From NCBI GenBank assembly GCA_009869945.1, contig WIXG01000196.1, positions 1 through 64,000 on the forward strand: a stretch of DNA of 64,000 nucleotides. The letters are read 5' to 3'. How positions within the stretch are numbered: the stretch's first letter is position 1; every line of letters starts with the position of its first letter. Both the position numbers and the translations under genes were made by a program. Shown piece after piece: positions 18,446 through 63,817 of this stretch. The DNA is from Mesaphorura yosii (taxonomy: Eukaryota; Arthropoda; Collembola; Poduromorpha; Tullbergiidae). The notes under the pieces were generated by a model. The model had not been told where the DNA came from. It worked only from the letters and a program-made list of their open reading frames with translations, and ran no database searches.

Positions 18446-20029
18446 TTACAGGTGAGTGATCGAGTTCTTAGAACTCCGCCGCACATTCTCCATGAAGCCC
18501 TCCGAAAGCACGAGTGTCGACAGGTCGATCGCAGACTTAGTTTTCCTCGACGCGCTCTTGAGATTGGATCCGGTGACACTCACGATCGACAGCGGAGACG
18601 TCACGAACACGGAGTTCTGCCGCGGGCGGTTGGTGGTGGCCAGGATCTGCTGCGCGATGGCGCTCGGTCCTGACCCGATAGCGCCGATCCCGCCAGAGCC
18701 CCCGAGCACGCCAACGCCGTGGTAGTTGCACTTGGCAAAGTGCGGAGACGCCCCGATCTCACTCGACAGGTTGAACTTGGAGTACGTCCTCTGAAATCAA
18801 AACAAAAACCCACGTCACTTCACAGGCCGAATTCTCCACAGCACACTTGGCAGTTGGCACTATGGGAATAAAACTCTGATTTTTACTCTGTTTCGCACGC
18901 TCTACTTCGGACTTGGATTGAGGTCGAATTTTGCCTGCTTTATGGCAATTTTTTAAGTTCGTGTTAGTCAAACAGTGAAAAATTCATGGAATAAGAAATT
19001 ATTTCCGTTCTGCTGAGCGTTTTCAGAACAGCTAGCCTTTCGGCCTCCATTCTTTTGCGCAAGAGCGGAGCCAACTCCTGAACTTCTGATCATGCATTAC
19101 TGTAATTACTACAATCTTTGATCCTCGCCTCGGCTTGCTTAAACCCGTGCAAAACTTGGCGAAGGAACCCTTCCTGATTCACTGATTGTGCGTTGGATTG
19201 GAAACTGATTTACTTACGGGGCCATGAGGGAGTCCCGTCACATCCGCCATGGGACAACTCAGGCGATGACTCTCCATAAACTTGGGTTGGTAAGGCCTGC
19301 GTGACAAAAAGAGCATGAACATATTGCCACGCTGCCTCTCTCCACGATCTTAACTTGTTAACTCACTCGAGCATTCTTATTTTGCCCCATCTGTGGAAGA
19401 AGAGGACGATGGCGCCGACCCATAGGAGCAGCACCATGATCACGATCCCAATCTCCTCGCCCCGAACCACCACGCGGGGCTCTTCGGTGGGGTCCGCACT
19501 GCTCGACGTCATTGTCGTCGTCGTGCTGCTGCTACCAACGTACTCAACGCCACCGCTTTGCTTGTACTCCACGCGAAAGAGGTGGCCAGGCAAGTAGCCC
19601 GGCCCCGGGCGTCCTCCAGCCGCGGGGTCGAGGCCGTTGGCGGAGTTGACGTACCCGCCGTACTGCAGAGCGTATTTATCAAGGGGAAAAGACGCGTTTG
19701 TGTTTGCAGGTCTCGGCTCGTGTCCTCCTGCACAATTTGCACAAATTTCGTTCGGCATGAGTCATTGTAGGAATGAGAAGTCGTTTCGTAAACAAAGAGG
19801 CCATGAAACCCGAACCGCGAAACCGTATCGGAGAAATACGTGGGCAGAAGAATAGTAAAACTGAACGCATAGCCCGTACGCGAGTCTATTTTCTATGCAA
19901 ATCGATGATCCCCATGTGACAAGTGACATCACACCGATCACAGTGACGGACACGCACGGAAACCGACTTCAAATTATACTTACCGGGCACTGCTGGGAAG
20001 GGATTTTCGCCATTCACCGATGGAGCCAT
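18446..20029 (-). CDS. Single-pass membrane protein of unrecognised family (paralogue A)
   Basis: I do not recognise this family. Four exons join in frame: 19984-20029, 19367-19727, 19218-19296 and 18446-18790, giving 276 aa. The start ATG at 20029 has a strong initiation context (CACAATGG). No signal peptide follows it, so the protein may enter the membrane through its single internal helix. Residues about 1-90 are Gly/Pro/Asn-rich, followed by a Ser/Thr run (SSSTTTTMTSSS) typical of O-glycosylated stalks. The membrane segment is EIGIVIMVLLLWVGAIVLFF, and directly after it comes HRWGKIRMLEPYQP. The cytosolic tail holds a glycine-rich stretch and RPRQNSVF. The TM and HRWGKIRML block and the RPR.NS motif recur in the plus-strand gene at 26538-28350, so the two are paralogues lying head to head. 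In-frame sequence upstream of the ATG (to about 20125) is open but is taken as 5' UTR. Confidence 0.72.
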
Positions 20030-23000
20030 TGTGGCAGTGATTGAAGCCTCGTTATCTGAGTGGTTCACGAAGCGGGCTGATACCCACAAAGTACGAGTCA
20101 CAATGAAGTATTGATGAACTCTGCACTGCAAACGTGTGGCGATATTTTTCTTGCTGTCATTAAACACTGAACGCACCTCGGCTATGAGTTTACTTGCCTA
20201 ACTTACAATTTTCCTAAACTCTATCACCTGATTAAATTCGCCGCTCCACCAATTACTTTGCAACTTAATCTCGCCAAAATAAAAGTTTGTGCGCCAACTT
20301 TCATTTTCTTCTTGTCCTTGTTAACACGAGCACTTTGCCAAGTGTCGAAACTTTTTTCAAAATTCCACTCTGCCGTCGGGGTCAGTTGAGACGATCGGCG
20401 AAAGACGTTCACTGGTGAAGGGTAGCATCTGCAAACGAGAAAAACGGAAGCGACTCAGCTTAAGCTTGGATTTAAATGTCTTATTTCTACGTAATTCTAG
20501 AACTTCACATGTGTGCGTAAGATTCGGTTATTCAAAAGGGATTAACGCGGCGGAAGAGAAAGTCAGAGTCAGAGAATGAATGATGCCACCGATTTAAGGC
20601 CCGGATATTGAGACGTGAGTAACGCGAACGCGAGTGGCAAGTGTTCATAAAGCCATGATATTAAACAACAATAATAAATACGAGGGAGCACAAAAGACAG
20701 CTTGGAAGGAAGTCTGAATGCCAGAAACATTCTTGAAAATACTCGAAATGGATTTATTTGTGTGGAAGAAGAATCGATTTTTCGATGACTGCTCAGCCAA
20801 GGCAAAGCAGGCCTGCATTGTGCTCTGGAAAATAATGGTTGGGCTTAGCCAGGCATTTGACTAATGACGTGAACATGCGAATTGCCAATGTGCAATTGCG
20901 TAAAATGAGTAAAATCCGCACAAACAAGTGCGCAACTTCCTGTTTCAATTTTTCGATGCTTTGCACAGTCAAGCTAATAGTCGGACAACTTGACTCGAGA
21001 CTTGGCTCGCTGATTTAATTAGGCCCAAGTCGTGGCGATGATTGACGACGTTCCAGTCGCACTCGCGTGGTGCGGCCGGAACGTGACATTTTGCTCAGTC
21101 ATTTATTCAAAACATTCGAGTAGAGTCAAGACGGCGCGGCGAGTGGGAAATTCCAGTTGTGTTGTGAGTGCTGCGTGCGAGTGATTGATGGTCTAATCAA
21201 TCAGTCCTTGTTAGCATGAGAGCATTCGTTTTTGCACGGACGCCAGTCTCTTCGCTCTCATCACTACCACGTTAAATATTTAAAGCCAACTTCCATGAAC
21301 TTTGTAATGGAATCACTCCGCATTTCAAAATTCCTCAAAGCCCGGATCACTTCGCCCGCTGGCTTCCTGAAAGAAGTGAAATGGAACGACATGGAGCCTC
21401 TGGACATGTTTTATGCATGCGAACCCACACAAACATTTTCCTCAGAATCTGCATTCGACCACCCACAAACGCAAGTTGTAATTTCTGCTGCCTTCTCGAC
21501 GGCGCACACGCCTGTAAGTTCCAGAGCATTAGAGCTCTCGGAACTCTCGTTTGTGGATTAGCTTCTACAATAATTACATCGCATTAGAACCCATAAAAAT
21601 GGCAGTTTATTCTCTCCGCTCGCGCTGCCTCGTTTCCGACTGTTAATGAGACAAGGAAAAGCTAAATCCCTCAGCAAAAGTGCACGCCTCATCTCAATAA
21701 AACGCTAATTGGCTAAAAGCGCATGTATAAATGGGGGATGCGCCGACTAATTAAAAGCAGAGTATTTATTGCCTGTTAAATTATTGCCAACTTGAACTCC
21801 ATTCTGATTTACAGCTTACAGGCACTCGAGACAATATTTATTGCAGAAGTTGAAGAACTTTATAGCTTTTGAATTAAAAATGCAATACAACTTGAGAATG
21901 GAAGTTGGTGACTTTTTAATGGCTTCGCTAAAACTTCGCACTCAAATCACACTAACTTTGACTTCTTTAAACACGCTTTCTTCCATTACCTGCCTTGCTT
22001 TGGCCTTAAATAATGCTGTCGATCTCCCTCTACGGGCTTTCGTGTGCTGAATTAGAAACGATTCCGATTAAATAGAACATGTTGAAAATGAAATTGTGAC
22101 ACAATAAAAGCAGCACTGAAACAACTTTGTGTTATTACGTCTGGTCGGTAACTGAGGGAATTGGTTCCCTGCCACTTCCTATTTCGGGATCTAAACGCTC
22201 CTGCTTGCTGTACGGATCCGAGAAAACTGTTTCACTCTTTGTCTTTCTCTGCAACATTTCATTTGATCCAGAGACAATGAAATAAAGCCTGTCGAGACCT
22301 GATTCGAGTATTCCAGATCTCATTGCCTTGCCTTGCTTCTCGTTGTCTGTCTATCGCCAGACTCAAATGAATTGCTTTGTTTCTTCCGATTATTTGATTT
22401 CGTCGAGACTTATCAACTCGGTCTCATTATTAGCCAAGCCAGGTCTTTGAAGTCACGATCAGAGTGACGTGCTTCAAGATTTTTCATTACAAAGACGAAA
22501 ACGAGCAGTGAGTCACTGAGTCACTGCGTCTTACCTCTTCTCGAATCAAATCACTTGCATTGTGCTCCCAAGACTGGAGACTCAAACTCTGCTCTGCTTC
22601 GGCTCAACTTTTTACAAGATTTGTCACTTATCCATAGTTTTTGTTGCTCCGTCCCTTCAAAAGCAGATCGGGTCACAGCGTCACAGATTAACAGACAAAC
22701 GAACTTTCTTCCTGTTTTTTCTGAGGGTCTCGACTCTCTCGATCTCTCAATCTGCAAATTGAATTCTCTGCAACCACTTTGTTCACAACTTCTCACTCAC
22801 GGCACTGCACGGCACAACTCGCAAGCCAGGATTCAAATTGTAATGAGATTCGAGTGGAATCTCGGCGACTGTGAACACGACTCCAAGACTATGACTATGA
22901 AGCGATGAACGCAGTTGACTGCCGAGAGTCGCGTCTCTAATAAAGCTTCTGTTCCATTCAGTATTCAGTTCCTTGCCTGCCGTGTTTCCTGGCTCTTGGC

Positions 23001-26000
23001 TTCGTACTCCGGCTTTCTTGCGAGTTGCGCACGCACTCGCCATTCCATTCTGTCCCGGTTGCTCGCATTGTACGTTTGCACGCGGTAGAAGCGGAACGAA
23101 CCACCAGACTAACTACTACTATTATTATGGCTGTGAGCACGAGCAAAGTCTTCGAAAGAATGCGTTCCGAATCGATGCATGTTTTCTGTCCACTCTTTCA
23201 TAAACTCCAATTAAGCTAATTACTCGACGCGACTCGGTCGCGTTGTTCGGACAGAATGAGAAGTAGGCAGCATTCCACGAATCGTATACGGAAATTTCGC
23301 TTGAGAATGAACTCCACATTCGACGTTTCCATTCGTTTGTTCTCGAGTTGCACGTGTGAATCGAATACAGTATCTCGAGTGCGCGTACAATTATCTGAAA
23401 TGAAATCTCAAGCAAAATTACGCTCCGCATTTCATACTCAACTCGATTTCAATTTGAGAGCATTCTCGGAACCTCGCTCCTGGGACCGCTTTCTCTTCAC
23501 AGCACAGGCTCCTTCGTTCGACAATCTGAAATTCCGTCACAGGCAGCCACAACACGGATTCCGTGTTTATGAAGTCAATCTTCAATGCATGAACACAAAC
23601 CAGAGCGTAATTTTAAACAATTCGCCCACACAATCTGAATTCCTCGCAGTATTGTATTGTAGGTTTGTCTCGCTCTTTGCTTGTGTTAATTTCGCAGATT
23701 GACAAGTGTATAAATAACAGCTCGGTTTATGACGCGTGTAGTTAATAACTTAACTCCACAAACAAATTCCGTGTAAGCCTGTGAATTTGGGAGCGATCCA
23801 AGCAGAAGCAGGCGCACGGTCACGGTCGAAGGGAAATTCAGGCAAAGCTCGAGTCTGGACATGTGCGAATGCGAAAGCCGGCCAGGTTGAATGTTTGCTT
23901 TTCTGTCGTTGCGACACCATTCGACGAGCTGGCGCACGAGTGATTCCTGGAAAACAAAGAGTCGACGAAGTGGCTGGTGTGCGTGCCGCTGAGTGGTGCG
24001 GCTGGAACCACCAATTTCCAGGTTTCAGGAAAGGTTCCCATTAAATCGACATTCCAGATTCCATCAGAGTTTAATCGAAATTAGTTGGCAGTGTAAAATT
24101 GCATTACATTTCTTATTATTTCAACATACGTTGAAAATAATTGCAGGGGAGAATTGCACATTGCAGCGCACCGGTTTTTGTGCTTAGACTCCGCAATTTG
24201 CACAAACTTAGAAAAATTTAATTGTCTCAAAGTGTTCATTTTTGGGGAATTTTTGAATTGCGAATGAAGCAATGTTCTGAAATCTTAAACGAGCAAAAGC
24301 TGAGCTGGCAATCGATGCCTGAACTCTGAATAAGAAATGATGTAACTGTCACTCCGCCTGCCTTCACTTTAATTCTCCACTTGAAACAATGAAAATACGG
24401 GCATCCAACAAAAGACAAATGCACAAAAGCACTGCGTGCCTGACACAAGACAAAGAGCGATGGCTGAGCTGAGTTGGCCGACCGACGACCGGTCTGTCGT
24501 CTGTTGTGTTTTCGGATTTAGCCTGGATCAATGCTAATAAAGTAATGGATTGAAAGGAATCAATCAAATCGACACAAGTGCTTCATACTCGCCGCTTCGC
24601 GCATTCTCTCAATACACTGCAGCCAGTGCCAGTGCATTGTGGACGTTATCAGTTGGTCTAATCCATTTCTCCACTTGGCATGCCTTACTTTGTTTCTGCT
24701 CTGTTTCGGTCCGCGCACGCAGAGGAAAGCAAAACACAATAAATAATTGAATGCATCGTGATTATGATGTCTTTCCATTTCGACTCTTCTGCCCTGCCGG
24801 TGGTCAGCGTGTCGTCTCTTTGCCCGCCTCCATCACGGGACAAGCCCAATTGGGCCCATTGCCTCACCGAACTCAAATCATGCCTCCACATTGTGAATCA
24901 GCCTCACAATTGTTCCTCGTTCGTCGTTCAGAGTTGGATGGCGATGGGCCGAACCGACATGTGCAAATATTGCGAAATCATCACTCGCAAATGTTCATCC
25001 TCCACACACAATTCATTAACCAAGCCTTGCCATACTTTCTTCCACAAAAGATAGACAATTTCATTGATTTTCAGCAACGCGGGCAAACATCACGGAGGTC
25101 GTTCCATTTTCATCTTTGCAAAGGGGCCACCCGGAAAGGGCAAAACATCCATTTGAATAATTAGCAAACTAATTCCATTAAGTCAACAAAGGAATGAGCA
25201 CCACGAAACATGCATAAGCGTTCCAGAAATTAACTCATGCGTCCACTTCCACACCTTGCGAGCATCACAAATTCCCGTCAGAATTCCAAACCCGCGTTTG
25301 CTTTCCCGGGTTTAAAATACAGGGACACGCTATCCATAATTCAATTATGCAAAACGTGCGGTAGTAAAAATGCAAGCGCACTAACGACTGGAGACACGCG
25401 ACACACGCCATGCCACGCGGTTTGCTCACGCAGGGTCATAATTCTGTCACGGTCGTAAACATTCACCCGGTCCACTGTCAAAGGGTCGGGGCATTCTTCG
25501 AGATTAAAAGAGTTAAGAATCATTCCGTCGTCAACATCAGCACACACAGAACATTAAGTAAGTAAGTATTTGGGAAAGTGCGCTAAATAATTAAGGAGAC
25601 TCGCCAGGCGATAGCAGTCGGTCGGTTCAATTGTAAAGAACTCAAAACGGGTGAAAACACACGAGCGACCCACTGCTCATAAATTCAGTGGGCTCAGTAG
25701 TTTACAGTCTAATATGGCAATCTAATATGGTAATGTGCATGATTCTTTGTGTGTAACGACGACCTTTCTCTTCTTTCTATGGAATTCGACGTTCGAATAG
25801 CAACGCAGCCTACATGACATTCGCTATTTCGATTCCGATTCCAGGTACATTCCGGCCGAGCCGATAAAAAGCCACAAGACAGCAAAAAGTGGCATTGTGC
25901 AAGCTTTTAACCCGAGAAATGGCAAACCATGTCTTTGTCGTGTTGTGCACGAAGCGTTGTCTATTCGAGGAGCAGTGACGAGGAGTGAGTGGACGACACC

Positions 26001-26537
26001 CCTGCCAGCTTATCAAATATGAATGCTGTCCCAATAATACGACGAGGGCAATTTCTCCTGCCCCGCGCGCACCCCGTACAACTACCAACTATACTCCATT
26101 GCAATTCTATCACGCAATCATAATTCAACGAGCTCTACTCGTGCCGTGCCTCACTTTGTTGGAAGCGCCGGGCTTCTTCGTCTCAGCTTGCCACAGTTCA
26201 GTGCGTGTCTGCTACACTCAAACAAGCTAAGCTCATCAATTGAACCAGGCCAATTTGGATAATTTGAATCCTTCATTTGAACCCTTGTACCACCACTCTT
26301 TTAAAGTGTTAAGCTTCCATTTACACCAAATTGGCACAAATCGTCTCAACAAACGATTCGGCAAATCCAAGACACAGAAAGCACCTCCAGCAATCTTCGA
26401 GAAATGACGGAGTTGCGAAAAGTGACCTTCTCGTTGCCCAACGTGTGAATCGTGAGTGCGTTCGTGCGTTGCCACTTCGAACCAGATTAGTCAGCTCCAG
26501 ATTGAATCCCTCGTTAGTACGCTGTGATTAATGGAAG
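20030..26537. other. Intergenic region between the two divergent membrane-protein paralogues
   Basis: About 6.5 kb that should contain the promoters of both divergent genes. I see no gene I can support. One minus-strand open segment (about 25433-25547) ends at a good GTGAGC donor and looks mildly coding, but it cannot be spliced in frame to paralogue A. No tandem repeats or transposon ends were seen. Confidence 0.5.
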
Positions 26538-28350
26538 ATGTTTATGATGACTCTTATTGTGTTATCCTGCATACTCAAACCAACGGTTCCTGATGGTAAT
26601 CCAAATGCAATTGCCACATTAATCTGTTCTTCAGCTAAAGCGAGCACGAAGACGATTAATCGGACGTGTGCCACTGTCACTTGCATTGCAGGTTCGGAGC
26701 TGGTGCTGCTGAAGGACACGTACTCTTACAATCTGACAGTTACCCACCTCAATTCGCACTCGCTCGGACTGAGCTGGAGTTGCAAGCACCAACACCTCCA
26801 CGACAAGTATGAAGTCACGCTCAAACCGCTCAAGGCCACGTAAGTGCCCACCATTGTCACTCTCCGAACCCCCAAATCCCAACACACTAAACTCCGCTGA
26901 TTCTTCGTTTGGACTCTGCAGTTACAGGGTTATTGAGACTGTACCGCACAACAGCTGCTCACTCACGATCGAAAACCTGATTCCCGACACAGACTACCAG
27001 GTCTCTGTCACACTCTTCTCGGGCAAATTCCGCCGTCGTTCCAACTCCATTACCATCAAAACACCAGGTAACATTTGTGTGTGTAGAGTCGATAGCGCGT
27101 ACTTGTTTGACAAGGTGCGCTGTTGCAGTTGAGGAGGCAGAGGTGGAAATTGACGAGGTGGTGGAGGAGTCGTCCCGAGAATTGAAACTTCCACATGTGC
27201 AGCTGGTGGAGCTGAGCCTGGTGGCTTTAGCTCTTATTCTCTGGCTCGGAGCCATCGTCCTCTTCTTCCACCGCTGGGGTAAATTGTCCAAAACAACTTC
27301 CACTTTATGATGACACTTTCCTCACTTGTTCTGAACTGTTTTGAAATAGGAAAGATCAGAATGCTCTTGCCCTACCAGCCAGGTACGAAGGAGCATCAAC
27401 AGTTCCCGTTCCTACCCTGCATGAGCCCCAGCTAGAACAGTGTTAATTTGGGATTTGTTTTACTCGACAGATTTCAAGGAAATGAAGCCTACTGGCTCCA
27501 CGTGTACCAACTGCACCATCACTCCTCATCATCAGGTACGAACAGTCTGCCAGTCTAACTACCAAATTCCTTGCTTAAATTGTCTACCACCAAAAACTGT
27601 AAACACTGATTTGGCGTCAAGTGAGATACAACAGAGCACCAAATCAATCAGATGCCATTGTTTCATCTCAATTGCAACCAAAATGCTCAATGCATCCCCC
27701 ACACGAATTTATTCTTATCACTTATCCTTCGACACCTGACACGAGCTTTCGGACTTGCCCCACTGTCACATGAAGGAAGCATGGCTGTCAGTGGCACGTT
27801 TCCACATTTTGCGCACCTTGCCGCTCCAGCCACCATACCAGTCTCACATTTGTGATGACGAATTGCAATAAAGTGTTGCCTTTTGCTTTGAAATGATAAT
27901 GATGGCCCCGATGGACGGGGTTCAGTTGCATGGGTCGAGGCGAGAGGGTCGACGTGCTTTTCATGTTCGTGTTTGTGTGTGTCCCCCAGTCCGCCAGACT
28001 GCAGCAATTGCAGACTCAAGCAGAATTGCATGGATTCAACGCAGGCGGTGGACTGGTCTCCTTCACCGACGTTGGATGCAGCCCTCTGAGGAGGCCACGG
28101 CTCAATTCTTTCATCGGATACAGCTCGGTAAGGACACACGCACAATCAGTCAATCAGCCACCAAAATCCCCTCCCCGCTTCTTCTGCCTGTGCCGGGTGT
28201 CGGTGTTCATCGCCTCCTCCTGTCTGTTGTTTGCAGACGGACGACCCCATGTTCATAGCTGCCGGAATGGGCAGGAAAACACGCAGCGCAGAGGAACTCG
28301 TGCTCGGAAGCTCGTACGAAGACTACCAGCTGGAGTTTGTTGCCTTCTAA
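26538..28350 (+). CDS. FNIII-domain single-pass membrane protein of unrecognised family (paralogue B)
   Basis: I do not recognise this family. Eight exons join in frame: 26538-26595, 26692-26839, 26922-27067, 27129-27278, 27350-27382, 27471-27535, 27990-28127 and 28237-28350, giving 283 aa. The start ATG is supported by an in-frame TAA shortly upstream. A short hydrophobic leader (MFMMTLIVLSCIL) is followed by one fibronectin type III-like domain: SYNLTVTHLNSHSLGLSWSC, then YEVTLKPL, then LTIENLIPDTDYQVSVTLFS. An acidic stalk (VEEAEVEIDEVVEESS) leads to the helix LVELSLVALALILWLGAIVLF. Next comes FHRWGKIRMLLPYQP, nearly identical to paralogue A. The tail has RPRLNSFIGYSS and ends YEDYQLEFVAF. 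The first intron is 96 bp, without a stop and in frame, so it could be retained and add 32 residues. A receptor or adhesion role is only a guess from the architecture. Confidence 0.8.
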
Positions 28351-29311
28351 GTAGTACCGATTAAACGTAACTCATTTTCAAAGCCCAGAGCCTTGCCTTG
28401 CAGCGTTTGAGTGCAATTGTATTCTAAGTTTATATCCGTAGAGAATTTGAGAATTCTATCAACTAAAAGTTTTATCACCGAAATTGTGTCTCCCCTACAA
28501 GATCAAAATTAAAGCCGTACTACATTCATTTCGTCTGCGTTTGTTGCTTGATCTGGATTTGCACAATGATTCAGTTTTATGATTCAATTGATCAAGGTGC
28601 AGAGAGGCAAGGCTGGCCTTTTCGATTAATTCGTCAGAATGGTCAATCTCACTGCACGGGCTGCAGTTGCGTCCTGACTGTGAGTCTGTGCACGCCACCC
28701 AACGTCCAGGATTCGTGTGCATAAAGAAAAGGATCGACTGCTACACGCTCGTGGGTTCAAATTGCGCCTGTAGTGCAAATTCGTTGTGGCATTCTTAATG
28801 CTCCCAGTACAGTTCAGTCGTAAAGAAAGACAGGTACAGCAGGGTCGAGTCCAAAGTCATCGCTTAGAATTTTGATAAATTAGCAGGAATTAATCAGGTA
28901 TTAATTAAGAAAGTTTTATGTACCTTTTTTAATGGTGTTTGCTCGGCTAATTTGAATCGGAAGTGGGGGAAGAATAAAACAGCTTTGATCATTACTTGCC
29001 AGTGTCAGGGTCTGCAGCTGAACAAGACAGATTACGTCAAGTCTCGACAATAAACGCCTACCTGGAAAGCAACTGATGAACTGACCAGTGGCATCTCCAG
29101 TGGGCAGGCAATCCGGTCGCGTGTATCCGTCGTGTAGCCTCACGTCTCCAAGACAGGTATCATGTCAATGAAAATATTTTATTATAAAAGACCTATATCG
29201 ACTTCTGCTAGCATTAATGGTGTCATGGGCCTAGGGCGAGATTCAAGTCATCTAATATGAATTGAGGATTCCTGTTTTAGATCACCGTTGTTGGATCCAG
29301 GAATTTGGAAG
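28351..29311. other. Intergenic: paralogue B 3' side and CDK12 5' side
   Basis: About 960 bp. An ATTAAA lies just after the paralogue B stop. Near the right end a TTTTAG at about 29275-29280 could be the acceptor of a CDK12 5' UTR exon. No gene is seen. Confidence 0.5.
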
Positions 29312-32300
29312 ATGCATCGTCCTGTGAGGCGGTACCGTGATGTCCGAAGGCGCTCTTACACACCACCCCCAATGCACGGGTATTCCGATTACTCCCATTC
29401 CCAGCACTACTCCCGTTCTCGTCATGACCGTGGCCATGAGTCCAGGAGTGGCCGCGACAGTCGAGATTATGCGGATCGAGACAGAAGACGATCTAACGAA
29501 TTCTCTGAAGTGTCTTCCGAGACGTGGTCTGAACCAGAAGCTGGGGAAATCGAAAGTGAAGATTCGGACAGGGAGAGAAGCAAGGTAGCAAAGAAGGTCA
29601 AGAAAGACAAGGGCAGACATAAGGAAAAGCGGAAAGAGAAGCGGAAGAAACCAAAGAAAAGTAAACACAAACACGCCAAGGTGAAGACCACCAGCGACTC
29701 TCTCAGCAGCAACGACGGCAAGGCAAGGCCGTCGAAGTCCAAGTCCAGATCGCATTCACCACTTCCCGCTTCTGATGTCTTGGGCAGCCCTATCAGTTCT
29801 GACGAAGACCAGGAAGACGGCGACTCCCTCACCACGAAAAAACTTCCACCGAACTCGCGAGTCGACGACAAATCCAAGCCCAACGACTCTCCAAGTCGTA
29901 AATCTGTCGCCTGTGATAACTCAGGCAAGGAGAAGGTGTTCGAAACTGTTTCACCATTGCGGTCCTCCCCCTCTTTGTCTCCGCACACTCCTCCTCTGCC
30001 CCCCAAAGCGTACGAGAAGTATATTCCGCCCAGCTCAAGCAAGAGGAAGTTGCAACGAAGTCAGGGCGAGGATGACGAGGACAAGCGGCATGTCAAGAAA
30101 AGACCAAAGGATGTCGACAACCTTCCTGCAAAGGATCCTCAACCTGGAAAGAGCGTTGAGAACTCACGCGGGTCACCATGCCAGAGCGCATCTGTACGAC
30201 CAAAAGACGCCCTCGACGACAAACTGTCCGCGACCAGTTTCTTCGCCAAGCTTCGAGAGAAAATGCAGGGTCCGATTCAGCGCAAGAGATCGCCCACACC
30301 TCCGCCCGTACTCTTCATTCCTGACGACTCTGACAAGTGCATTGATCTGCATGACATGTCGACATTCCCTCAGGATTTGGGAGCATACAACACTCAGCCG
30401 GTGGACCCAACTTCAGCAGACGGCTCCGGTGAGGTGCTGGTGGAAAATCAAGACTCTCAAGCAGGAGGGGTGATTCAGCCTTCTGCAGCCGCTGGCGGCT
30501 CTGCCTTGCCTGAAAATGTGAACCTAATGCAACTTCCGTTTCCTCCTGGCGTCGGAAGGAGCGACTTAATTCCAAAGGGCTTTTCCACGGCCGCAGCTGC
30601 GCTGAAGACTTTAACCGATCCCAGCTTGACCAAATTGTACCCTGTGGACAGCAAAAACTCCAAGTCCAAGATAGTGAGCATCACGAAGGATCTGCCGATG
30701 CCTCCTGTCATTCCTGGGGCCATTTTGGAAGCAGCGTTCAACAGAAGGAAAATTCTCAAGCCACGCATCATTCATAGAAGGAAGGAGTTGCCGGATTGGG
30801 GAGACCGTTGCATCGACTCCTTCGACGTGATTTCTCAGATTGGAGAGGGCACGTACGGACAGGTGTACAAGGCCCGAGACAACATAAGCAGTAAGTGACC
30901 AGAAAACCTTTGAGTTTATACGGCACGGGGCATGACAAGAGAAGAGAGAGTTTCACTCACTTGTCGATGTTTCTAGATGACTTGGTTGCTCTGAAGAAGG
31001 TCAGGTTGGAAAACGAGAAGGAAGGATTTCCAATCACGGCCGTCAGAGAAATCAAAATCCTTCGTCAGCTGAACCATAAGAATATTGTCAACTTGAAAGA
31101 GATTATCACGGACAAACAGGATGCACTTGATTTTAGAAAGGTAATAGTAAGAATTGATTTATCACAATCAGTGTTTGTATGGGAAGGGTTTATTTGACGG
31201 TCGGTAGCGATGGCCATGGCTGGAGACGAAAATTGAAAGCGTGCTTCTTCCTCCTTTGTTAGGATCGAGGCAGTTTTTACCTTGTGTTTGAGTACATGGA
31301 CCACGACTTGATGGGGCTCCTCGAGTCCAACATGGTCAACTTCACGGAGGAGCACAACGCGAGTATGATGAAGCAGTTGCTGGACGGACTGAATTACTGT
31401 CACAAAAAGAACTTTCTTCATCGTGACATCAAATGCAGCAACATTCTCGTCAACAACAAGTAAGATACGTTAATTTTTCTTGAGCTTTTGGCGTGGCTGA
31501 CCTTCCAAAGGCGAGCAGTAACCTTTCGCTGTACAACGCAGGGGGCAAATCAAACTGGCAGATTTCGGGTTGGCTCGGCTGTACAACGCGAGGGACAAAC
31601 AGCGGCCGTACACCAACAAAGTCATCACGCTGTGGTACAGACCTCCGGAGCTTCTGCTGGGCGAGGAACGCTACGGGCCTGCCATCGACGTGTGGAGTTG
31701 TGGCTGCATTCTGGGCGAACTTTTCCTCAAGGAGCCCATGTTCAGAGCAAGCACAGAACTCGCTCAGCTCGAACAGATCGCCCGGATTTGTGGCAGCGCG
31801 ACCCCCGCCGTGTGGCCCAACGTGATCAACCTGCCCTTATGGAGCACCATCCGCCTGAGGAAGACGTACCCACGAATCCTTCGAAAACATTTAGTCGCTA
31901 TGCCCCCAAATGCTTTAGACCTGTAAGTGCACCTGAACAATCTGATATTTGCTTCTACATTCAAAAATGTTGGCATTAATGCACGAGTATCTGTCAGCGC
32001 TGATGGATTCCATGTAGTAGTCCTTGCGTAACTGTTGTTTCCTTTTAGCCTGGACAAGATGCTCGAGTTGGACCCGGACAAGAGAATATCGGCGGAGGAC
32101 GCGTTGCAGAGCAAGTGGCTGAAGGGTATGAACCCAGATAAGATGCCTCCGCCCGACCTGCCAACCTGGCAAGACTGTCACGAGCTTTGGAGCAAGAAGC
32201 GACGGCGCCAGATGCGGGAGCAGAATGAGGCATCGCAGACTTTGCCTGCTGGCAAGGCGTCCGACGGCTACGAGTCACTCCCGTAAACACACTTTACTAT

Positions 32301-36242: not shown

Positions 36243-37633
36243 ATGAGTGCAGGAGTTCCTCTGCTCACGGTCACTCCGAAAGCGTCAATGCGGTTTCTGC
36301 AAGCGTTCCTGAGGACGGTTCCTGGACTGTCTGTTCACAACATGGGCACCTTTCCACGGGTGACATTTCTTTCTGGAAGTAGTCATCGACTTTACTCCTC
36401 CGTCTCAGGTAAGCACAACATTTTAGGATTCCAACTAACAACCCAAATACTTCCCAACTTTGATGCTTCTTCAAACATGCCTATGCTCTTGCAGCTCGCC
36501 ATGCGATCGGGAAGTTCTACAACCCTGAAGTGCAGTCCTGCCTCAAGCAACTATGCGGAGTCAACTTTGAAACAGTATTTCGAAAAAGGAAACTGGGACA
36601 GAAGTTGAGGGCACCAAAGCTGAGTTTTATGACCGAGTCGCAGCTTGAAGAAAACATCCGAACATCTGAAGAAAAGGCAAAATTCCTGCTTCAAATGCCT
36701 CCCGTGCTGCCTCGGAGAAAGGAGGTCGAAAAGATTCTGTCCTTTGATCCTCATATTCAGGGATACGATCCGGACAACTCCACGGTTATTTTGACAGACA
36801 TCACATTAAATGGGAGCGACCGGGTGAATAAAATTAGCAACAGTAATTCCAAACCCCCATGCCAATGAATAATTCGAATCGAATTTCAGGACCGCCTTGT
36901 GGTTGCTCGAGATCCCGACGGCACACTTCGAAATGCAACCTGGGCTGAGCGGTCTAAAGTGAACAGCGCCTACTTTCCAGTTCGAGGTCGTTTACACAGA
37001 ACCCCGAAAATATTTAGCGACAGAGATGTGCTTCATGAGGTTCTGGAGCGTGCCTCTCCGTCGGATAACACGTACGAATTTGTGTTGGACCGTGCATGCT
37101 TGCAGTTCGAGCCAGATGATCCCCAGTACATTGATGTTGTCGAGTCCACGTACAAAAGCGTTGACAAGAAGCAGCACTACGATTACTTGACCTCCACCAG
37201 ACACTTTGGTCCTCTCGTCTTTTACTTGGTGCGGACGCGACAAATGGACAACCTCCTCATTCATTACATCAAATCAGAGCGGTGAGACTTTTCTGTCACT
37301 TCCACTTTATTGCAGTTGCAAATTGCCAATCATCTCTATACGAGTAGGTCTGAAAGATTGTTTTTTATTCCGTATAGAATAACTCATGCCACACTGCTTG
37401 TTTCGCTGCACCACCTCATATTTTCCGAATCCGATTCAAAGTTACAAAGCAGTCGCGAAGTTTCAGCTTCAGGCCAGAGCCAGGAGGAATCCGATATCGG
37501 CAAGATTCGTTTCTACATCAAACTGGACGCGATCAAGAAGAGTGAGCTGGAGCTGGCCTTGAACTGGTACCTCGACACAATCAACAAGCAGCAAGAAATC
37601 ACGGAAGGGCTGCAGCGGTCTCATGGCGTGTAA
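36243..37633 (+). CDS. MRPS22: Mitochondrial small ribosomal subunit protein mS22
   Basis: Component of the mitochondrial 28S ribosomal subunit, specific to animal mitoribosomes. Four exons join in frame: 36243-36408, 36495-36823, 36890-37281 and 37378-37633, giving 380 aa against about 360 in human. The first exon is basic, Ser/Arg-rich and free of acidic residues (MSAGVPLLTVTPKASMRFLQ onward), as expected for a mitochondrial targeting sequence. The family core is clear: LKQLCGVNFETVF, FMTESQLEENIR, LLQMPPVLPRRKEVEKIL, VILTDITLNGSDRDRLVVAR, ATWAERSKVNSAYFPVRGR, CLQFEPDDPQYIDVVESTY and YDYLTSTRHFGPLVFYLV. The helical C-terminus KSELELALNWYLDTINKQQ follows the human pattern. Polyadenylation signal AATAAA at 37755-37760. 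It is head to head with POLDIP3. Confidence 0.94.
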
Positions 37634-41782: not shown

Positions 41783-44472
41783 ATGACTCTGCGCACAAAG
41801 ATCTTCCAAACATTTGAGTCGCTTCTACGTGTGCCACCTTTGCTGCTCATTGATGAAATCCTGCGATATAGTTTTGGTCTCGGGGTTTCCAGATTCGCTG
41901 GGTCCGGTAAGAATCCACGCAAAAGATGTTTTGTTTTTGTTTTGCTGTCGCTGTGTATGATATCCAAATTCTATTCCTCAGGCAAATCGTACGATGGCAC
42001 AGACATGTCCAAAGTGGTGGCTCAGAGTGAGTTGTCGATGCCAGTCGGGGCTTGGTACACTTCATTGTTGGCACAGTCGTGGGTTTGGAAGGCATTCCTA
42101 TCCTGCTTACCAGGGAGTTTGAAAGGGGAAACCCCACCCAGCGACGAGACCTCTGACTTTGCATCCTCACAATATCTTCTACACATTAGCTTAGGCAGCA
42201 CCGAGTGGAATGTAATTCATCATATGGTTTCCAATGATCTTATGCGGTGCGTGGAAGTACTCGCGTGCCTCATTTGTAAGTTGAGTTTCCTAATTAGCCT
42301 TGTCGATCAAACTTTCCGACATTAATCTGGTTAATATCCATCTTTGCAGTGTTCTCTATGATGGTGATCGTCTTCGTGCTATCCACCGAGAACCTGATCA
42401 AACTTTACATTCAGTATCTTTCGTACGTAGTCTTGTACGTAGTGTACATTTTGAGTCCGTTGCCCGCTTCGTCATGGCTAGTCTTCACAGAAGTCGCCTT
42501 CTGGTACAATGTTGTGATACGCCTGTCTCTGTGTGTTGTTTACGTGCTGGCAAGTTCGTGGTCCGCTTCACGACAGAGCCAGGAGTCAGCAGTATTGAAC
42601 TATTTGATAGTGCCAATATTTTTCGTGGCTGGCGTGGTTCGTATGCCCCCCGGTATTTATGTCGTGGTGCTGCTGATCCTCGAAAAGAACTTTCGAGACA
42701 ATATTTCCACGGTGGCCAGCTTCCTGAGAGCCTCGTGGGACGAGACGAAGCGCATTAGACACGAGTTTGGACTCAATCACCTCATCCACGTCCACTCCGG
42801 AAGACTAAGACTTAACAGCGTGTTCAAATTGTTCTGGATTACGAAGGCATGCTACGATGCCTGTCACCAGTGCTGTGATTCGTCCCCTGAAGAGGTCGTC
42901 AAACACGTCATGACCCAAGGAACCGAGGTAACTTACGTAGACTATCAAAATACGTCTGTTTAGCTTCCAATTGCACTCCTGTAGAGTTGACGGTATTTAT
43001 TTTAGACTCTTACGGGTATAGTTGGAATAACAGCAGTGATCAGCTGTATTGCAAATCAGGTAACGGGTAGGTTGTTATTTACGAAGCGCCTGAGGAAATG
43101 AACAAATTCTCTTGACTTAGTTTGGGGAGCTCATTCTGTGGATTCTGTACTGTGGAGCCAATTCTGAGACGGATGCAAATAGATTTGGGTCAATTTCCAC
43201 AGTGCTTTTCTTTATTCTGAGCTTGCAAACTGGACTGACGACGCTCGATCCGGAAAAACGACTGGATCGTCTCACAAAGAACTTGGCGTTGCTTCTCACC
43301 GCGCTCCTCCACGCCTTACACCAAATGGTACAGCAAAGCATTGGCTCACAGCAATGCTTACTTCACTTTGGCTCTCTTCTTAATTTGAATAATGCCTGTT
43401 CACAGGTGAGCCCCATTCTACACGCGTATCGTTCGCTGCAGGGGTTGCAGATCAGAGCCGTGCTGCTCTCGCTAACCTTTCTCGGGATCTCCGTCTATGC
43501 CACGAGCCGGCTGTTGCATTCCGCTCCGATCTCGACGTGGTCGCTGGCAGTCTTCGCTCTTGCCATAGAATTCAAAATCAAAATCCTAGTGTCCTTGATC
43601 ATTGCAGCTGTGCTCTACACGTCTCAACTGATCGTGTATCCGCAACCGATCAGGAGAGTGGGACACGTCGCTCGCCTTGCGCTTCCTCAGAGCGTCGTCC
43701 GATTTGGCTCGTACCTTGGCGATGAAATCTCCCACGAAGACTTGGTTTTTTATCTCAAGACTTTCGCCAACGTTGCCGAGTTTGTGACGGGAATTTTTCT
43801 TTTCGCCAATGCCATTTTCATATTCCTTTTCGAGTCTGCCTCTGCCATTCGTGCCATCGGTGAGGTGTAAACATGACTTACTCCCAGGAGTACAAATCGA
43901 GTAATTATTGCCTAATTTGCATTAAAGGCATGTCGATCCACGCGTACTTCAACATTTGGTGCGAGGCCAAGAAGGGCTGGAAGATTTACTGTCAGAGGAG
44001 GACGGCAGCTGTCAAAATCACTTCTCTGAAAGACGCCACGGAGACTCAGTTGCTTGGAAAGAAGGACGACGTGTGCGCCATTTGCTACGAAGAAATGGAG
44101 AATGCTAAGGTCACCTTCTGCAGGCATCTCTTCCACGCTGTGTGTCTGCGAAAGTGGTTGTATCTCCAGAACACGTGCCCCCTCTGCCACGAACTCCTTT
44201 ACTCCGAACAGGCTCTGGCGGGAGAGACCCATCGCGTCGGCGACCACCGGCCACCACCTCACTTGGAAAGAAGGCGGATGCTGGTTGACTTGGACAGGGG
44301 GCTCCGACTCCACGATGCCCGGCTAGGTCTGGGGCCAGAGGTCAGCTCGGATACTGAGGACTCGGACACGGAGCACTCGCGGGACTCCGACGACGACGCA
44401 ACCTTCGGCGACCTCGAAGAACAAGAAGTCAACAATCCAGACGTCCCCGATGGACTGGTACTGCTCTTTTGA
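41783..44472 (+). CDS. RNF139: TRC8 / RNF139 multi-pass ER ubiquitin ligase
   Basis: E3 ubiquitin ligase of the ER membrane with a sterol-sensing-like polytopic domain and a C-terminal RING-H2 finger. In animals it acts in ER-associated degradation and sterol homeostasis. Seven exons join in frame: 41783-41906, 41982-42275, 42350-42927, 43006-43059, 43121-43327, 43406-43859 and 43928-44472, giving 751 aa. Many hydrophobic segments cover residues about 120-560, for example SMMVIVFVLSTENLIKLYI and VFALAIEFKIKILVSLIIA. After the last helix comes GMSIHAYFNIWCEAKKGW, a signature of the RNF139/RNF145 group. The RING-H2 follows: CAICYEEMENAKVTFCRHLF, then HAVCLRKWLYLQNTCPLCHE. The tail is acidic and serine-rich (SSDTEDSDTEHSRDSDDD). 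AATAAA at 44527-44532. It is tail to tail with cyclin L, with 161 bp between stop codons. Confidence 0.93.
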
Positions 44473-50373: not shown

Positions 50374-51348
50374 ATGGTGAGTTCTCAGGTCTATTTCCTC
50401 AAGGAGGAATCTCGAGATGAAATCAAGAGAGATGTACCATTTTTATAGTCATCGCCGGCTGCAGTGGTAGGTGATCCATCGCCTTTGGCGGATGCGTGGA
50501 ACCTCGACCAATCCAAAATTCTTGCTCTGTTCATTACATGCGTTCTTATCATTCTCACCTCATGTAAGTGAATTGTGTCCTATTTGTGGAGTACACGAGA
50601 GAAATCACAGTTCTATGTGATGTACTATTTTATTTTATGATTTTATCTCATGCCAATCACCAATTGCAAAGCTTCAATAGCCTTTACTTTTTGATTTTTT
50701 GGCTTAGTGTACTTCCTGATACTTGGGCGCAAGAAGGGCCTTTCGGTCGTCTTCGTTGGACCATCTGAAGCTGGGAAAACCTCCATCTTTGTCCACCTGT
50801 TGAACAGAATTGGTCAGGAGACTGTTATTTCCACTGTTGCCAATGTCGGAGAGTTTAAGCCTCCGGGAGGTAGTCAGACGCTAGTGCTGAAAGACTTGCC
50901 TGGCCACGATCGAGTTCGCACCAAATGGTGGGAGAGTCACAAATCTCGGTTGCTGGGGCTTGTCTGCGTGATTGACTCGTCGGGGGGCTCGAAGGCTATT
51001 GGGGAAGCTGCCGATGTCCTGTACAGCGTGCTCACGGACTCTATCGTCGCATCTCTCAAACCACGGGTCCTGATTCTGGCCAACAAGCAAGACTTGCTCC
51101 CACCTGGACGGGAAGTCAATGTTAAAGTGCAATTGGAGAAGGAACTTACCATGTTGAGGCTCACCAAGTCAGCCAGCTTAAGCACGACGGGCGGCGCAAT
51201 TACCAGGAAGCAGCTCGGAAAACCGGATCGGGACTTTGACTTTGAGCAGATCTCACCAATTAAAGTGGAATTTGCGAAGTCATGCGCAAAACCAGGAAGC
51301 GCCAATCTCGGCGAGTTATTGGACTGGCTGAGCATTCTCGCACGATAG
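50374..51348 (+). CDS. SRPRB: Signal recognition particle receptor subunit beta
   Basis: ER-membrane small GTPase that anchors the SRP receptor alpha subunit. Three exons: 50374-50376 (the ATG alone), 50449-50563 and 50708-51348, giving 252 aa against 271 in human. The first exon ends ATG|GTGAGT; the next begins TCATCGCCG, so the protein starts MSSPAAVVGD. A single N-terminal membrane helix follows (KILALFITCVLIILTSLYFL). The GTPase motifs are G1 FVGPSEAGKTS, G3 DLPGHDRVR and G4 NKQD (LANKQDLLPPG). The C-terminal region PIKVEFAKSC and LGELLDWLSIL agrees with the family. The start codon assignment rests on frame closure and the lack of another upstream ATG in frame. Polyadenylation signal AATAAA at 51535-51540. 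Confidence 0.9.
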
Positions 51349-58700: not shown

Positions 58701-60477
58701 AGCGTGGGCGACATGAGCAGAGGCAGAATCTGATTGAACAGAGGGCCAGCCTGAAACTCCCGAGCCTGTAGAAAAGAAAAGAAACAGAACATTAGACAAC
58801 TGACCAAAGTTAGGACTGGATATGTAAAGAAACGTAGGATCTTACCTTGTCAGTTATTTGTCTCAAAGCTGACTTTCTCATTGGGGGAGTTCCATTCTTG
58901 ATCTTAAGGAGCAGTTTCATGATCTTTCTCTCCTTCTGCTCTTCGGGGCTCAAGCTCTCTTCATCGACATCAAGCAGAAGCTTGTCAAAGTACTGCGCGT
59001 CTTCCGGCTTCAAAAACGGCAGGTTTCCTCCTTTCGGTTGAGTGTCGATGAACTTGGACGATTTGTCCTCCGTCTGGATGAAGAAGCCTTGCGGCGTTCC
59101 GGCAATTGGCGTAGGCGTTGCGGAAAGTTTCCGAGCAGGTGTTCTAATTGGAACGTAGCCTGCTGGCGGAGGAAGAATCTTATAGCCTGGGGGAAACATT
59201 TGATCCAGCTCGTCATCCGAAAATGGTCTGTTCCTGTCGTCGATTTCTTTCTCCCACCTGTACGCTTGCAGTTGTTCTGGTGTCATTTGCAGGAGCTGAC
59301 TAGGCGAAGGTGTGGCCATACCCATGGCTTTCGCACCCATAGGTGTAATTCCTCCCGGCGTCATCATAGATGGTGTGTGAGGGGTCATCGGAGTTGCTGG
59401 CGTTTGCGGAGTCATTGCCACTGCCGGTGTTTCGTCCCAACGACTCTTCCGTTTGCTTGCTGATGGGGTGGGAGTCTCCTGAATCATGTCGACCCCGCTT
59501 CTGTCTACTTTGGGCGTTTCTGCCCAACCACTGCTGTGCCCCGGCGTCTCGCGCTCTGTCTTTGGAGTTTCATCCCACCGGTTGCGTCTGACCGACGCCT
59601 TTTCTGCTCCCGGTGTTGCGTGGCCTGGAGTCATGTGAGCTGGTGTTGGGTCCCAAATACGCTGCGCTGGTGTGTGCCCAGGCGTCTCAGCACCTCCACC
59701 TCGATGGCCTGGTGTTTCATCCCAACCAATATGTCCAGGAGTCTCGGCGGTCTCCCAGTTGGGTCGCTTCTTCTGTGGAGGCACGACATTTTCATCAGCG
59801 GCTGCTTGCTGATCCCACCGGCCCTTTCGCTTCACAACTTTAGACTCTCCATTGCCCACTGGTAACAGGGGGCCATCCTTTGCCTTCTCAATCAAGCGGT
59901 CTCGAAAATCCTTTCGCGCTTCTTGCAGTTTGTTTTCTCGCATTATGTCTGCGTAGGTTCTGGCACCCACGTCTGGAGTTTTCCCACCGTCCAGAAAGTC
60001 GTCAACTCGTTCAGGGGAAATGACACGTTTCGCGGCCCTGGACAAGTACTCGTTGTGTGCCTGCCTTTCCGCAATCGTTTGCCTTCTGTGCTCTGCAAAC
60101 ACGTCGACATCTTTCTCTGCCTGCGGAATATCATTTAGGAGAGATAGTGGAGCGGTGTAGGCCTTCCCTCGCCCCGGTGCAACTGGCGCCGCGTCGATGT
60201 CATCTTCTTCCGCCTCATCATTTGGTGCGATGGACGTGTAATAGCCGTCAAATCCGTCCGTTGCGCCGTAGATGTCAACGTCGAATTTGCCTCTCTCTCC
60301 AAGCCCAATCCTCGCCTCCTCCGGAACCTCAACACTTTGCTTCTTATTTGCTTGCAGTTCGTTGGCCAAGGCAGCAATTTCTACAAAATAAGAATCTTTA
60401 GTTGTAAAGGGTGAAACGGAATCCATTTTAAGATAAAGGAGCTTACCTTCTGCCGTTTTGGGCACCGACATTGACAT
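55725..60477 (-). CDS. SF3B1: Splicing factor 3B subunit 1
   Basis: Largest SF3b subunit of the U2 snRNP, which clamps the branch-point helix. Twelve exons join in frame: 60447-60477, 58846-60380, 58613-58765, 58384-58529, 58052-58317, 57736-57974, 57371-57653, 57231-57295, 56606-57153, 56264-56536, 55961-56177 and 55725-55883. They give 1304 aa, the same length as human. The N-terminal third is disordered, with RWDETP-type repeats ([18 protein letters not shown]) that bind UHM domains, and many TP sites. The HEAT-repeat superhelix is almost invariant: [20 protein letters not shown], then [20 protein letters not shown], then [20 protein letters not shown]. By exon-length counting, the lysine of EQQKVRT is residue 700, the position often altered in human cancers. 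Two donors are weak (GTTAGT after exon 3, GTTTAT after exon 8). It is head to head with enolase. Confidence 0.97.

Positions 60478-63817
<3,340 letters not shown>

Follow-up and report, generated by a model that had tools for sequence, protein, structure and literature searches.

In Drosophila, Iditarod (Idit, CG33143) has been identified as the homologue of FNDC5, with one irisin domain and one transmembrane (TM) segment, and it is the single fly homologue according to this work (Cobb et al., 2023; PMC10523451). Flies need Idit for the autophagy that Atg1/Atg13 induce, for endurance in exercise and for resistance to cold; its authors suggest membrane trafficking or signalling through the cytoplasmic tail as possibilities, and a conserved cell-autonomous role was proposed (PMC10523451). 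A further fly protein, CG12541, is annotated as FNDC5-like, but its predicted structure is described without an irisin fold and it forms the outgroup, distant from Idit and FNDC5, in all trees of that study (PMC10523451). CG12541 is reported to mark a neuropeptide-producing cell type in the larval fly nervous system (PMC6894929) and to be selective there for specific peptidergic clusters (PMC9404646). CG12541 lies on chromosome X (PMC4692483) and CG33143 apparently on arm 2R, an allele carried over CyO having been tested in the mapping of a 2R interval (PMC7252270). The domain DUF4808, which is central to what follows, is given by name only in one paper (PMC8615036).

We analysed a window of 64,000 nucleotides of Mesaphorura yosii DNA (contig WIXG01000196.1), in which two neighbouring genes stand head to head, ~6.5 kb apart. 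Gene A (minus strand, 20029..18446) has four exons and a predicted product of 276 aa; gene B (plus strand, 26538..28350) has eight exons and a predicted product of 283 aa. Both models were spliced by eye from the DNA, with splice sites picked so that introns have GT...AG ends and preserve the frame, as the 3 introns of gene A and the 7 of gene B, 10 in total, do. We think it very likely that A and B are paralogous single-pass proteins of the FNDC5/Iditarod family that share the DUF4808 module, gene B with the layout of an irisin precursor and gene A without fn3, in the manner of CG12541. The exons are as follows.

Gene A exon 1, 19984..20029, minus strand: MAPSVNGENPFPAVP, with start-codon context CACAATGG, without a hydrophobic leader (splice model; a further 5' exon is possible)
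Gene A exon 2, 19367..19727, minus strand: ectodomain, TM segment and GAIVLFFHRWGKIRML, with DUF4808 beginning here (profile 1-36)
Gene A exon 3, 19218..19296, minus strand: PYQPKF with the proximal part of the cytosolic tail; the DUF4808 match here begins at profile position 35
Gene A exon 4, 18446..18790, minus strand: distal part of the cytosolic tail, including RPRQNS, where DUF4808 ends (profile 80-121)
Gene B exon 1, 26538..26595, plus strand: hydrophobic leader MFMMTLIVLSCILKPTVPD (splice model, hydropathy)
Gene B exon 2, 26692..26839, plus strand: first half of fn3, with an NLT glycosylation motif
Gene B exon 3, 26922..27067, plus strand: second half of fn3
Gene B exon 4, 27129..27278, plus strand: acidic stalk, TM segment and GAIVLFFHRW; start of DUF4808
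Gene B exon 5, 27350..27382, plus strand: 33 nt encoding GKIRMLLPYQP (profile search and splice model)
Gene B exon 6, 27471..27535, plus strand: proximal cytosolic tail (splice model)
Gene B exon 7, 27990..28127, plus strand: tail containing RRPRLNS (splice model)
Gene B exon 8, 28237..28350, plus strand: C-terminus, ending in LEFVAF before the stop (splice model)

The homology of the two genes, their domain layouts and their exon structures are observed on the DNA itself. Critically, both products match Pfam PF16066 (DUF4808), gene A over the whole profile (121.2 bits, 4.9e-35, positions 1-121 of 121) and gene B over positions 2-117 (87.9 bits, 1e-24), and both scores exceed the curated threshold of 27 bits; Pfam matches below their cut-offs were left out as evidence. 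The block shared by the two proteins is the start of this module, which Pfam labels a domain of unknown function. A sequence-only reading of the same DNA had assigned the block to no named family; its membership of PF16066, an outcome which that reading had itself named as refuting, overturns that statement and rules out a new protein family. In both genes, each DUF4808 piece has an exon of its own and the pieces run in profile order, which supports both gene models. When the 93-Mb assembly was searched with the profile, exon by exon and for first-look candidates, all five matches fell in genes A and B and none pointed to a third DUF4808 gene, although a divergent copy could escape a search of this kind. 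The family is probably wider than this animal, as had been anticipated, since the C-terminal part of human FNDC5, in a provisional sequence, also matches DUF4808 over profile positions 2-49 (30 bits, 8.5e-7), only 3 bits above the cut-off. The ectodomain of the same sequence agrees with PDB 4lsd_A at 98 of 98 aligned residues, which confirms that part and leaves the tail provisional.

In each protein, the strongest 19-residue hydropathy windows fall on the one TM segment. The 15 residues that follow it contain four Lys/Arg in gene A and three in gene B, and acidic residues outnumber basic ones in the 15 residues before it in both. By the positive-inside rule the basic flank of a TM segment is cytosolic, and the N-terminus of A and of B is therefore predicted to lie outside.

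The ectodomains of the two proteins differ. In gene B, a single fn3 domain is recognised by Pfam (46.4 bits, 4.7e-12) behind a hydrophobic N-terminus that is, by hydropathy only, a putative leader and candidate cleavable signal peptide, so that the hydrophobic start and single fn3 described earlier for this gene both hold; the one TM segment, with the DUF4808 module, comes after fn3 and the stalk. Within the stalk, DEVVEE resembles the DEVTMKE cleavage region described in PMC10523451, although the two are aligned in only one of the two alignments that span both. An ATG 7 bases upstream of the gene B start opens an overlapping short frame (window positions 26531-26593, MEDVYDDSYC...), which by eye stops within exon 1; such a frame could reduce translation of gene B. 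The gene A ectodomain is 104 residues long and had been called Ser/Thr-rich, a description that does not survive counting, as Gly/Pro (27) outnumber Ser/Thr (17) and a single local Ser/Thr patch is found just before the TM segment. By Pfam gene A has no fn3, and it has no evident leader in the present model, both as previously read. Its exon 1 was started at an in-frame ATG, and part of it may be missing; with no leader in the model, the 5' end is uncertain.

We compared gene B with irisin and both tails with FNDC5. The fn3 of gene B aligned to irisin (4lsd) with a score of 63, which none of 1000 shuffles reached (maximum 47), with 24 of 87 alignment columns identical and the NLT of gene B in register with NVT of irisin. 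In a search of PDB sequences with gene B, several fibronectin, tenascin and engineered fn3 chains ranked above 4lsd (E 0.1); taken by sequence alone, this fn3 is thus not especially irisin-like. It is because one fn3 is combined with DUF4808, rather than on account of fn3 alone, that we place gene B in the FNDC5/Iditarod layout. Against the provisional FNDC5 tail, the tail of gene A scored 68 (maximum 46 in plain shuffles) and that of gene B 62 (maximum 41), in both cases with 0/1000 shuffles as high. As a TM segment alone can raise such scores, these comparisons were redone with shuffles that preserve its composition: 1/2000 was then as high for gene A (maximum 69) and 0/2000 for gene B (maximum 53).

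Between A and B, similarity is concentrated at the membrane exit and in the tail. BLASTP aligned the two proteins at 3e-19, with 52 of 155 residues identical in a main alignment within the TM segment and tail, and their local score is 173, where 1000 whole-sequence shuffles gave 64 at most. The two proteins carry the same GAIVLFFHRWGKIRML, which is followed by E-PYQP-K-F in gene A and L-PYQP-D-F in gene B; farther along, the tails carry RPRQNS and RPRLNS. The common block ending in xPYQP and the RPRxNS motif, both noticed earlier, are thus borne out in the spliced models. Hydrophobic segments commonly look alike, and the gene A ectodomain is unrelated to the fn3 of gene B (983/1000 shuffles score as high), so one may ask whether two unrelated single-pass proteins have converged on a similar TM segment with a basic flank. 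We give this reading almost no chance: 1000 shuffles that preserve TM composition reached at most 68, the identity continues beyond the membrane into PYQP with RPRxNS in register in the tails, and A and B each independently match nearly the whole DUF4808 profile. True paralogy, then, with similarity focused where it had been reported and ectodomains that differ as claimed, accounts for the pair. The introns around the block do sit at different places: gene B is interrupted within the G codon that follows HRW and once more right after PYQP, with the 33-nt exon in between, and gene A has a single intron there, in the E codon right before PYQP. This bears on a further possibility, that gene A is a decaying, non-functional copy of gene B, suggested by its position next to B and by its missing fn3 and leader. 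We judge it highly improbable, as the four exons of gene A have intact splice sites and frame, gene A fits the DUF4808 profile better than gene B does (121.2 vs 87.9 bits), the differing intron positions suggest an old separation of the two, and a fly gene, CG12541, is reported with this layout (PMC10523451).

A more substantial alternative is that gene A does have fn3, on upstream exons missed by the model, in which case both genes would be ordinary FNDC5-like genes. The absence of a leader from the model, together with a frame that stays open upstream of the ATG to 20197, means that exon 1 may indeed be incomplete. Nevertheless, a Pfam scan of every stop-to-stop frame of 33 aa or longer on the minus strand from 19985 to 26530, 70 in all, showed no fn3. 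Its sole match was RNF152_C (0.017, under the cut-off of that family), and the frame that holds exon 1, scanned separately, gave DUF1416 at 0.21 only. At this minimum length, the scan covers the 6.5 kb that separate the two genes. As a positive control, the second fn3 exon of gene B was detected in the same scan at 2.4e-5. Pfam is weak on single exons, the first fn3 exon of gene B reaching 0.024, under a spurious 3A match at 0.0034; from these scores, an exon as clear as the second would be detectable and one as weak as the first might escape. The ectodomain that gene A does encode compares with irisin at chance level (score 24, 413/1000 shuffles as high), and CG12541 is likewise reported without an irisin fold (PMC10523451). 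We therefore regard a hidden fn3 in gene A as unlikely. Another contig (C96) has a weak fn3-like stretch (E 0.0025) with five stops in its aligned part.

Searches for tRNA genes and Rfam families in the window gave no match, and among 10 neighbouring frames submitted to Pfam five match housekeeping families, listed below, and two have no match at 0.001.

Protein kinase frame, 31522-31923, plus strand (Pfam)
Mitochondrial ribosomal protein S22 frame, 36869-37282, plus strand (Pfam)
SRP receptor beta frame, 50695-51345, plus strand (Pfam)
SF3b1 frame, 58813-60507, minus strand (Pfam)
Enolase frame, 61658-62140, plus strand (Pfam)

The frame at 43864-44469 (plus strand) encodes a RING finger and is directly preceded by a short match to TRC8_N (5.1e-5 and 22.8 bits, under the family cut-off of 27), which we take to suggest a membrane ubiquitin ligase resembling TRC8/RNF139. 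Upstream of a kinase exon, an open frame of 545 aa with RS- and lysine-rich stretches (29261-30895, plus strand) has no Pfam match at 0.001 and is presumably the N-terminus of a kinase like CDK12/13.

What A and B have in common is the membrane and cytosolic module, not the irisin domain. This module would comprise the TM segment, the basic juxtamembrane stretch up to PYQP and the tail with RPRxNS, held in both proteins in a predicted N-out/C-in orientation; gene B would place before it a leader, one fn3 and an acidic stalk. Because positions in the TM segment, the membrane exit and the tail are kept between A and B, and partly with FNDC5, we propose that the module may recruit the same cytosolic or membrane partner in both proteins and so could give them a cell-autonomous role in signalling or trafficking, for example in autophagy as for fly Iditarod. 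Gene B alone would in addition display, and maybe shed, an irisin-like fn3. A more speculative extension, which we hold to be unlikely, is that the DUF4808 module rather than the irisin domain is the ancestral and most conserved working part of the family, and that the adjacent head-to-head genes preserve an early state with one fn3-bearing and one fn3-less member, co-expressed, whose near-identical TM segments pair so that A tunes B. If this were true, CG12541, set aside for its missing irisin fold, would be a genuine functional paralogue. FNDC5/irisin is mostly treated as a shed hormone, and the pair, with one member apparently lacking the irisin domain, gives reason to look at the uncleaved protein and DUF4808 for the conserved cell-autonomous role proposed in the fly (PMC10523451). 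The family itself is known already; what seems worth following is the fn3-less paralogue and its adjacency to gene B.

Altogether, gene B resembles vertebrate FNDC5 in combining fn3, a TM segment and DUF4808, as far as the provisional FNDC5 tail allows the comparison. That tail is shorter, covers DUF4808 only over profile positions 2-49 and has neither HRWGKIRML nor PYQP as such; counted from HRWGKI, the tail of gene B runs for 119 residues, and that of the provisional FNDC5 sequence for 51 from the corresponding position. Iditarod, likened here by its published description, has one TM segment and a cytosolic tail behind a single irisin-type fn3, which is how gene B is laid out (PMC10523451), and its tail is reported to be longer than the mammalian one (PMC11853655), as that of gene B is longer than the provisional FNDC5 tail. 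By description too, CG12541 (Q9W3T1) resembles gene A, whose TM segment and DUF4808 tail without fn3 correspond to the layout reported for this protein, annotated FNDC5-like and without an irisin fold (PMC10523451). In the fly, CG33143 (apparently 2R) and CG12541 (X) are apart, whereas A and B are adjacent. If gene A is the orthologue of CG12541, the outgroup position of the latter speaks against placing A in the family proper; on the same premise, the DUF4808 score of gene A and its likeness to gene B suggest that CG12541 may be a relative after all, though one without the irisin domain. The pair also matters for whether CG12541 was rightly set aside as a homologue.
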